Positions 33,217 through 36,059 of a stretch of 64,000 nt of DNA are shown here, in pieces. Source of the DNA: Puccinia triticina. Its lineage: Eukaryota; Basidiomycota; Pucciniomycetes; Pucciniales; Pucciniaceae. Each line of letters begins with the position of its first letter. Position 1 is the stretch's first letter. The notes under the pieces are model-generated. The model did not search any database. It saw nothing but the letters and a program-made list of their open reading frames with translations, and was not told the DNA's origin. Made by a program: the position numbers and the translations under genes. Where the stretch lies: contig NC_070570.1 of NCBI RefSeq assembly GCF_026914185.1, positions 1,426,001-1,490,000 of the forward strand, written 5' to 3'.

Positions 33217-33814
33217 GGCAAAAACAGAACTAGGATATTCCCAAGCAAGCTTTACTTATATGCAAATTTGATAGTGGAAATGGGGCAAATGATATACGGT
33301 ATTTATGTGGGGAATTGGGAGGAATGAATGCCTTTATTTTGACTGTGTTTTTGAATGTGTTTTGTGTGCCTTTATTTTATGAAAATGTGCTTTGAAAATT
33401 GTATTTTATCATTATCATAATTCAGACAGAGCTTGCTTTTATAAGAAAGGGAAGCCCCTGGACTTCAGTTGATGCACGATCCGCCCCTCTTAGCCGCACA
33501 GTCCGCAGCGCCGCGCCGCCATGAAACCCCGACTCCATCGGACTCAAGGAGTCCAAACACTGCCACATCACCAGGGGACCAACCCATCACCGCCACTCGA
33601 ACTCGATCGGACTCCACAACGCCCCTTGGACTCCACGGCACCGACACCATCCCAGACCCTCGGGCCTTGCCCACACTAGTCTTCCCGATGGCGCAACCAA
33701 ATCCAATGGCGCAACCGATGGCGCAACAGATGGCGCAACCAAATCCAATGGCGCCACAACCCAATCCGATGCCCCACCCGAACGGTTTGGCGCAGCCCAA
33801 CTCAATGGCGCAAC

Positions 33815-33896
33815 TGTTAAAACTAACAATGCATTTTGCAGACGCTTAGCAGAAAATGATTGACTTGGGCAGGATTTGAACCAGCAACCTTAGCTT

Positions 33897-33949
<53 letters not shown>

Positions 33950-33999
33950 CCATGCCTGATGTGTTGATTTTGACCACTGAGGATTACAACATTTCAACA
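33815..33999 (-). repeat. TRIM LTR, left copy (3' LTR)
   Basis: 185 bp with terminal TGTT(A/G)AAA inverted ends. It differs from the right copy by very few bases (for example CAGCAACC against CAGCGACC), indicating a recent insertion. It contains the tRNA-like unit at 33862-33950. Confidence 0.88.
33862..33950 (-). tRNA. tRNA-like gene inside the left TRIM LTR
   Basis: On the minus strand an 89-nt unit has a 7-bp acceptor stem GACTTGG/CCAAGTC, a D-arm GCCT...AGGC, an A box TAGCCTAGTTGG, a B box GGTTCAAATCC and a T-stem with one mismatch; TTTT follows shortly downstream. Two folds compete: (a) a class II shape with stem GCACT/AGTGT, an 8-nt loop, and a long variable arm CTTAGC/GCTAAG; (b) a canonical anticodon arm CTTAG-CTTCAAG-CTAAG with anticodon TCA plus a 19-nt insert. 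The odd loop in (a) and insert in (b) argue against a normal decoding tRNA. Confidence 0.7.
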
Positions 34000-34263
34000 C
34001 ACCTCCTTAATCCACAGTGGGAGAATAGGAGACCCTGAAGTCAATCATTCCTGAGCTAGTCTATACAGTGAGAATGCATATTGCATAAGTGGATTTTGCA
34101 TATTCCAAAGTAGGGTTATACCCCAAAGCTGCATATGGCAGAAGTGGATTTTGCATATTCCAAAGTAGGGTTATACCCCAAAGCTGCATATTGCATAAGT
34201 ACAATATTGCATAATCTCATGTAAATGCATATCATGCGCATAGCACATTTCGACTGTTAATCG

Positions 34264-34345
34264 TGTTAAAACTAACAATGCATTTTGCAGACGCTTAGCA
34301 GAAAATGATTGACTTGGGCAGGATTTGAACCAGCGACCTTAGCTT

Positions 34346-34398
<53 letters not shown>

Positions 34399-34448
34399 CC
34401 ATGCCTGATGTGTTGATTTTGACCACTGAGGATTACAACATTTCAACA
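34264..34448 (-). repeat. TRIM LTR, right copy (5' LTR)
   Basis: Same 185-bp sequence as the left copy, bordered on the right by the TSD GCAAC. With the element on the minus strand this is the promoter LTR. No TGG-starting primer binding site is obvious next to it. Confidence 0.88.
34311..34399 (-). tRNA. tRNA-like gene inside the right TRIM LTR
   Basis: Same 89-nt unit as at 33862-33950. The single noticed difference lies in the stretch before the T-arm. A and B boxes and the acceptor stem are unchanged, so both copies retain Pol III promoter signals. Confidence 0.7.
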
Positions 34449-36059
34449 GCAACCGCTTTCGATGTCGCAGGCAACCCCAGTGTCGCAGCCCCTTGGTGGG
34501 CAGCAATCCTGGGACGAGTTTCAAGGTAATTACAACCCTTTGGGCACCCATCAAGACTACAGCTTAACCCCCGGACATGACCCACGCCTCATCCCCGGTA
34601 ACAACCTCTCCGGACACCCAGGCCCCCCATTTGGAAGCAACCCCGCCTCCTCCATCGGAAACAACTCCCTTGCCCTCAGAGGGCCCAATCATCCTCCTGG
34701 TGAGTATTGATCCACTCACTCACTCCTTCCCCCATCTCATCTCCAACCCCCTCCCCTTCAGCTGAAAGCGTGTCAGGTTCCAACCCCCCAGACGTGCACA
34801 ACCGACTGAGCGAGGCAGGACCCCAACGCACGCCCACAGTGGCCCGAACTGGCGCACCGGCGTCCCCTTACGCCATGAATCCGTTACCACCCAAACCCCA
34901 TCAAGCGTGGTCGCCAAGCAGTGCCAACTCGAGGCAACTGAGTCGATCCTTGCAATCAAGTGGCGGACAGTCTGTGGCCCTTTCGCCCGAAGACCTTGAG
35001 GAGATGCAGGTGGCCCTACAAGCCATCAAGGGCACCTTTTCCCTCAGTCCCGAGCTGGTGGAACGGGCCCAGCCCCTATTTCAGGTGAGTGATCGACCTT
35101 CTTACTCGGGTCAGGTAGTCTGTTGAAGCCTTCCAGATTTGCAGATGACGCCAGAAGCCCGCAACATGGCCATACTCCTATTGGCCCTCCATAATGGCCT
35201 CAATCCGCGCTCAACATCCGTTGGCTCGATCACTATTCCGGACGAAACCGCTTCCCCCTTCGAGTTCAGCAACCTCTTCAAGACCCATCTCCGCAAGACC
35301 GTCCAACGAGTGTTACTCCGTGAGGACCTTCGATCTTACGGCAGCCGCGCCGCAACTCGGTTGCGAGTCAATGAGACCCCGGTCTCCAAAGCCATTGTAA
35401 GTCTCTCCTCTCTCAGTATATTGCAGTACATTTTCTCACCTATCTCTCAACAGGGTGCAATCGAGAGTGCGTCGGCAGAATTCCGTGCCGCGCACTTACC
35501 GCCTTCGGGTCACGATGGCCCCGAATTGAAAGCACTTGTTACCGAGTACGTGAAGCAAGAAAAAACCGCCCTGGCTCTGCTCATCAAGGTCGGTCTCACG
35601 GGGGGGGGACCCCCTCCAAGGTACCCAACCTCTATTCGCTCATTGCGCACGTTTACTCGACTTTCCACCCCGATTTCAAAAAGGCGGACGACGAATTCAT
35701 TCATAAGAAAGTTCCCGCCGGCGCCAAGATCCGCTTGTCCTACCTGCGCTTCATGGCCAACCGTAACCGAATCACCCAACGTCGACAATCGACCCGGAAG
35801 CAAATCTCCTTCTGGGACGATATCGACGAGGACCTAGTTAGAATCAGGAAGAAGTCGCCCGCATACGGCGTGGCGTACTCTAAGCTCATCCTTGACCTCA
35901 ACCAACAACTCTGGGACGGTAAGAAGACCGTCCGCGATGTCAACGACAACCCGGCCGAGAACCAAGAGCCCCCTTCCGAAGAACAAATCATGGAGCACGT
36001 GGCCTCCATTGCTGAAAATCCACCCCCCCCGGAAGTTGTATTACCTCCCAACTAAAACC

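Follow-up and report, generated by a model that had tools for sequence, protein, structure and literature searches.

The closest described relatives of the element reported here are the Helenus elements, TRIMs with tRNA-like LTRs that were named by Kojima in 2024 (PMC10886601). That paper describes 113 families in the Pucciniales, or rusts, including more than ten in Puccinia triticina. Among the latter are LTR-1_PTrit, with 529 LTRs, and Helenus-8_PTrit, which is given in Table 2 with tRNA-Thr-AGT and 55 genes (PMC10886601). As described there, fungal Helenus elements generate 5-bp TSDs, and most of their PBSs are complementary to the anticodon loop of a tRNA (Tyr, Ile, Asp, and iMet); tRNA-Asn-GTT is also named among their primers. 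The same source infers a Copia helper from PBS similarity and, in one family, from a shared internal region (PMC10886601).

The findings reported here bear on how TRIMs are mobilized when their LTRs resemble no autonomous element. We analyzed a 64,000-nucleotide stretch of P. triticina DNA (the window; G000:C13:1426001-1490000) and searched the genome, comprising 122.8 Mb in 18 contigs, for relatives of an element within it. As far as our searches reach, the kind of element was already published as Helenus in 2024, and natural Copia-Helenus hybrids are what this analysis adds. We found no paper on such hybrids in the literature searched, which left preprints and most subscription journals outside its reach, and the available part of the Helenus paper makes no mention of Copia hybrids (PMC10886601).

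Element structure

At 33815-34448 of the window lies an LTR element of 634 bp, oriented on the minus strand. Its LTRs are two 185-bp direct repeats, identified by repeat search and comparison, with one difference between them. Its features, in window coordinates, are as follows.

33810..33814, no strand: left TSD copy GCAAC, read off the flanks
34449..34453, no strand: right TSD copy GCAAC, read off the flanks
34264..34448, minus: 5' LTR, TGTTGAAATG...AGTTTTAACA, 185-nt direct repeat
34310..34399, minus: tRNA-like unit of the 5' LTR, a cloverleaf with a long variable arm (ARAGORN, Rfam tRNA, fold), containing A box TAGCCTAGTTGG and B box GGTTCAAATCC
34302..34305, minus: TTTT downstream of the 5'-LTR unit, weak candidate Pol III terminator; second T4 at 34268-34271
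34249..34263, minus: PBS CGATTAACAGTCGAA, directly past the 5' LTR, complementary to a presumed tRNA-Asn-GTT-type anticodon stem-loop (half-tRNA priming)
34000..34263, minus: internal region of 264 bp, without a sense-strand T4
34075..34184, minus: two tandem 55-nt repeats, 96% alike, in the internal region (repeat search)
34038..34049, minus: 12 nt (internal 215-226) fully complementary to LTR 134-145
34000..34013, minus: polypurine tract GGATTAAGGAGGTG, adjoining the 3' LTR
33815..33999, minus: 3' LTR, 185-nt direct repeat with one difference from the 5' LTR
33861..33950, minus: tRNA-like unit of the 3' LTR (ARAGORN, Rfam tRNA)
33853..33856, minus: TTTT downstream of the 3'-LTR unit; second T4 at 33819-33822

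This is the organization of a TRIM: the LTRs are short and paired, a PBS, a polypurine tract, and a TSD are present, the size is below ~1 kb, and the element is non-coding, with no ORF of at least 90 amino acids found wholly within it. Each LTR contains a tRNA-like sequence with an A and a B box in sense orientation, as is characteristic of Helenus. The LTR pairs and TSD rule out a SINE.

An initial annotation, made from the same sequence, had described the 185-bp LTRs, GCAAC on both flanks, a minus-strand purine tract (which lies directly ahead of the 3' LTR, from 34013 to 34000), and the acceptor stem, A box, and B box, and all of these are as written there. The unit it placed in each LTR is present, but measures 90 nt with discriminator A instead of 89 nt, and the nearby T-tract is there only as T4, at LTR positions 144-147 and 178-181. 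Its reading of the locus as a rust TRIM with a sense-oriented tRNA-like unit per LTR is supported by the genomic copies, Rfam, and ARAGORN. As for its proposal of a fungal counterpart of Cassandra, the kind was right and the novelty was not, Helenus having been described in 2024 from the same fungal order.

Gln/Pro-rich open stretches enter the element from both sides (window 33445-33849 and 34423-34710, plus strand). The insertion site may thus be a coding exon. The five ORFs of the interrupted locus have no Pfam match.

Genomic copies

The element belongs to a repeated family. Among the best 40 of 540 candidates, the LTR search recovered at least 40 full or nearly full LTR copies with 95-100% identity, and matched one fragment of another family. 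Every one of the 40 LTR alignments spans the tRNA-like unit. A tRNA captured by chance in a single copy, one of the two outcomes that would have refuted the initial annotation, is thereby rejected. A search with the internal region found 13 copies, two of them partial.

Five elements are full length, and their LTR pairs differ at 1, 1, 0, 3, and 4 of 185 positions. Since these LTR pairs are young, we infer that the family has been recently active. Perfect 5-bp TSDs, the length typical of fungal Helenus, flank all five full-length copies; among 23 solo LTRs, 21 have them. The genomic copies do have paired LTRs and TSDs, contrary to the other outcome by which the initial annotation would have been refuted. 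In the two exceptions, the flanks match at four of five bases (L030) or show no duplication (L058). Four of the remaining seven LTRs are parts of three hybrids; the other three come from one element each on C5 and C1 and from an older C6 copy whose partner is truncated. Three damaged LTRs were seen beyond the 40 (L063, L102, and L103).

Some copies are rearranged. In the C5 and C1 elements (L048, C5:3751549; L050, C1:1246114), the 3' LTR is broken at an identical A-box position, GGTAGCCTA, and continues into similar foreign sequence. In L102 (C16:3630300) and L103 (C2:1243450), the LTR is broken just upstream of the unit by GC-rich foreign sequence.

Four loci carry a Helenus internal region without LTRs, 93-98% identical (L045, C7:878708; L046, C5:5753167; L047, C9:4709975; L049, C6:3504847). 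These copies are bounded by TTTAACA and TGTTGA and are placed past a G run inside another repeat, a relative of which lacks the insert (L097, on C16). The G run permits, and cannot prove, a GGGGG duplication. We rejected the idea that they represent a sister element with long LTRs, on the grounds that the left flank occurs once per copy and that the insert-free relative exists.

One solo LTR with TSD ACCAC (L062, C9:3693208-3693392) lies inside the 3' LTR of an element from a second, larger Helenus family. The A-box core of this second family has 508 matches at up to three mismatches, some of which may represent further families.

The tRNA-like unit

The unit resembles a tRNA in sequence and fold. 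ARAGORN calls a minus-strand tRNA in each LTR, reported as 'tRNA-???' without a proper anticodon, and the Rfam tRNA covariance model scores the unit at 45.8 bits (E 2e-08) against a cut-off of 29. For the isolated 90-nt unit, the cloverleaf is the minimum free energy fold (-30.3 kcal/mol, z -2.93), and the centroid structure differs. In the cloverleaf, the variable arm measures 7 bp and the anticodon loop 8 nt.

Within the family, the boxes are largely intact: of the 40 LTR copies, 35 have an exact A box, 37 have an exact B box, and 32 have both. Substitutions per site amount to 0.0136 in the unit vs. 0.0132 in the rest of the LTR, and no selection on the unit was seen among these 36 gapless copies of the 40. 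Because unit and LTR decay at equal rates, the copies are not kept as host genes.

The unit aligns between the element's family and the second Helenus family, and the A-box stretch is identical in both, while the rest of the second family's LTR gives no BLAST match to the window at E 1e-6. We imposed the cloverleaf on five sequences, three from the element's family and two LTRs of one second-family element. Of 138 cells, 92% pair under this structure, a value reached by 0 of 500 shuffles. Two-sided changes occur in 8 of 28 pairs (20 of 500 shuffles reach that number), and the covariation score of 0.293 was reached by none of 500. The number of further pair types is not raised in these five sequences, 445 of 500 shuffles being as high. 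As a control, sliding the pairing partner in the same sequences left zero or one two-sided pairs. These few sequences suggest that the cloverleaf has been maintained between the two families. They support selection on the fold without proving it, because the imposed structure was taken from one of the five rows and the rows are related. The two-sided stem changes hint that the whole cloverleaf, beyond the Pol III boxes, matters to the element.

The initial annotation expected a parent among the genomic tRNAs. No clear parent emerged from 40 of the 57 Rfam tRNA hits (the best 63 of 6857 candidates were scored); the best partial matches were with tRNA-Ser genes, over 14-18 nt surrounding the B box, and at the A box over 16-18 nt. 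Of the 31 long tRNA hits of at least 80 nt (L109-L139), many look intron-bearing past the anticodon; these were selected by length, so that no proportion can be drawn from them.

The boxes and the sense orientation of the unit fit Pol III. A T4 is weak as a Pol III terminator; if functional, the one in the 5' LTR should shorten the RNA to about 100 nt. The internal region contains no sense-strand T4, as do fractions of 0.34 of dinucleotide and 0.13 of mononucleotide shuffles. We therefore rejected a depletion of T4 there as not significant.

The 12-nt complement joins the internal region to the unit's 3' acceptor strand plus trailer (34038-34049 with 34304-34315 and 33855-33866). It was noticed after the fact; complements of at least 12 nt arise in 8 of 2000 shuffles. 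As a speculation, such pairing could mask the tRNA 3' processing site in the full-length RNA. Being post hoc, and altered both in L045 and in the older copy on C6, it is left as a lead.

Primer binding site

The PBS is shared with many other LTR-like junctions. Its exact 13-mer, CGATTAACAGTCG, has 36 genomic matches (23 forward and 13 reverse), vs. 5 and 7 for the backward control. Six of the matches lie in the family's own copies, four of them full-length and two in hybrid 1. We inspected all of the other 30, and 29 resemble an LTR end followed by a PBS (the exception is L085). ATGTC occurs within 67 nt in 27 of these 29 junctions. These ATGTC are probably Copia gag starts; the domain scan covered the Copia of hybrid 1, which has the 13-mer in common with the Helenus element and the 29 junctions.

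Judging by the anticodon loop, the PBS is presumably of the tRNA-Asn-GTT type. Together with the published mention of tRNA-Asn-GTT, this points to tRNA-Asn as the probable primer. A genome search with one intron-bearing pattern gave no match to a tRNA-Asn gene.

Copia-Helenus hybrids

Three natural hybrids of Copia and Helenus were found, each flanked as one unit by a single 5-bp TSD. The junction lies at the shared PBS in one of them and is tail to tail, U5 to U5, in the other two.

Hybrid 1 (C3:1396110-1401356, minus strand) has CGCAC on both outer flanks. It consists of, in order, a Helenus LTR, the PBS, a Copia internal region, a Copia LTR (ending GGTCCTTTA), the PBS, a Helenus internal region, and a Helenus LTR. 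The domain scan detected Retrotran_gag_2, rve, and RVT_2 in its Copia part, in open stretches separate from one another. The last 601 bases of the Copia have relatives at 98-100% in three other places; two of these, on C2, lie 4.6 kb from each other as an LTR pair flanked by TSD CCGCA. TSDs of Copia itself are likewise 5 bp (CCGCA and TGTAG). The two outer Helenus LTRs are identical except at one of 183 sites. Hybrid 1 would most simply have arisen when a Copia circle recombined into a Helenus copy already in place, through the 17 nt of PBS that they share; alternatively, it would derive from a chimeric cDNA. If it did arise by later recombination, hybrid 1 could show contact and not co-packaging.

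In hybrid 2 (C13:2436632-2437535), a Copia LTR abuts an inverted Helenus LTR without a gap, U5 to U5. The five bases ahead of the Copia LTR, GCCTG, are the same as the five past the Helenus LTR. The Copia LTR has both termini, TGTTGAAACTTG to GGTCCTTTA, and is 97% identical over its first 216 bases and 100% over its last 95 to a C10 Copia family that carries the PBS.

Hybrid 3 (C7:3508925-3514561) comprises a Copia with both LTRs, a 38-nt filler, an inverted Helenus LTR, and GACAA. The Copia LTR ends GGTTCTTTA, and the filler consists largely of pieces of that end. One-step integration predicts GACAA ahead of the Copia 5' LTR, ~5 kb away, and we found it there, directly before TGTTGAAAC. An alignment of its two Copia LTRs shows 19 mismatches and 20 gap columns in 758, and the Helenus LTR is 98% identical to that of the window; these divergences do not clash with one common date. 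The PBS of hybrid 3, CAATTAACAGTCAAA, is the same site with two G-to-A differences, and an apparent relative, judged by eye, has the PBS unchanged (L065).

The Copia LTRs of the hybrids represent different subfamilies. The LTR of hybrid 2 is ~73% identical to that of hybrid 1, and that of hybrid 3 aligns with the others over just 61 nt in that orientation. All three subfamilies carry the element's PBS or a decayed form of it, and the U3 ends of Helenus and Copia both start TGTTGAAA. These comparisons are only suggestive of partner specificity via the PBS.

A possible older hybrid (L063, C7:3063150-3063966) consists of a Helenus LTR, a decayed PBS, and an inverted Copia-like LTR, with flanks AACCC and TACCC. 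We did not count it as a fourth, as its Copia-like part has no close relative and its flanks match at four of five bases.

Discussion

On its structure, copy number, and TSDs, its PBS shared with 29 other LTR-like junctions, and its hybrids within single TSDs, we consider it likely that the element is a Helenus-type TRIM with recent activity, helped by Copia and with a Pol III cycle. The unit's A and B boxes would recruit RNA polymerase III, which would start near LTR position 45-50, pass the weak T4 of the 5' LTR and the internal region, and end at the T4 of the 3' LTR. The anticodon half of tRNA-Asn would prime reverse transcription at the PBS. Copia elements with the same primer would supply reverse transcriptase and integrase in trans, and the Helenus cDNA would integrate with a 5-bp TSD. 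We lean, by a modest margin of confidence, towards reverse transcription of Helenus and its Copia helpers in one particle, where the two cDNAs would meet and be joined by their U5/PBS tails (having the same tRNA-Asn primer). In hybrids 2 and 3, integrase would then use one Copia and one Helenus U3 end. A point against Copia help is that Helenus LTRs end CA, while the Copia LTRs of the hybrids end TA.

Ordinary nesting or ectopic recombination of old copies could also produce mixed elements, and the hybrids would then be uninformative about the helper. Nesting does occur, as seen in the solo LTR with its own TSD inside another Helenus element, and hybrid 1 fits exchange at the shared PBS. A nested insertion nevertheless misfits hybrids 2 and 3, because the Helenus LTR adjoins the Copia LTR end or the filler without a TSD of its own on that inner side; moreover, the outer U3 ends share one TSD in both. 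We regard nesting or ectopic recombination as an unlikely account.

The polymerase is a separate question. Copia elements, the putative helpers, are transcribed by Pol II. Pol II might transcribe the element as it does other TRIMs, leaving the unit as a passenger or with a role in RNA folding, processing, packaging, or export. The two T4 per LTR and the 600-nt length, which demand readthrough under Pol III, speak for this, as does the apparent conservation of the fold as well as the boxes across families. Set against it are the 32 of 40 copies with both boxes exact, the A-box identity of two families with otherwise unmatched LTRs, and the sense orientation of the unit. Transcription by Pol II is accordingly conceivable but doubtful, and from sequence features we infer Pol III. 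That the LTRs hold true tRNA genes feeding the host tRNA pool is highly improbable: the Rfam score and the minimum free energy cloverleaf would fit such genes, but ARAGORN assigns no proper anticodon, the anticodon loop is 8 nt long, the unit decays like the remainder of the LTR, and isotypes are reported to disagree in many Helenus families (PMC10886601).

The three hybrids are natural molecules in which a single TSD encloses a Copia end and a Helenus end, or in which the two elements are fused at the shared PBS. Any rust genome can be screened for physical evidence of this type, and the hybrids thereby open the helper question to direct test. If the joint-integration reading is true, hybrid integrations would provide a general assay, needing nothing but sequence, for the helper of any Pol III-type TRIM, and the hybrids would show that partner choice follows the PBS.

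Comparison with known systems

Ty5 and Drosophila copia differ from the element in being autonomous, and their primer tRNA is not the same as the element's. They share with it anticodon-loop priming and a connection to the Copia superfamily (PMC10886601).

The Cassandra TRIMs of plants resemble the element in having a Pol III gene unit in each LTR, and Pol III transcription is stated for them (PMC10886601). The unit is 5S rRNA in Cassandra and tRNA-like in the element, in whose LTR we detected no 5S rRNA; Rfam at E up to 1 gives tRNA only.

SMARTs are comparable in that their LTRs are unlike those of the putative helper, but they have an internal stretch in common with that helper (PMC10886601). 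For the element, sharing with Copia was found only at the PBS, at 8 terminal LTR bases, and in the hybrids.

Helenus, as exemplified by LTR-1_PTrit and Helenus-8_PTrit, is the closest match. Both it and the element are TRIMs of Pucciniales hosts with a tRNA-like unit per LTR, a 5-bp TSD, and an inferred Copia helper (PMC10886601). The PBS, tRNA-matching in Helenus, presumably matches a tRNA in the element too. The element's family may be Helenus-8_PTrit, a guess from the published Table 2 description.
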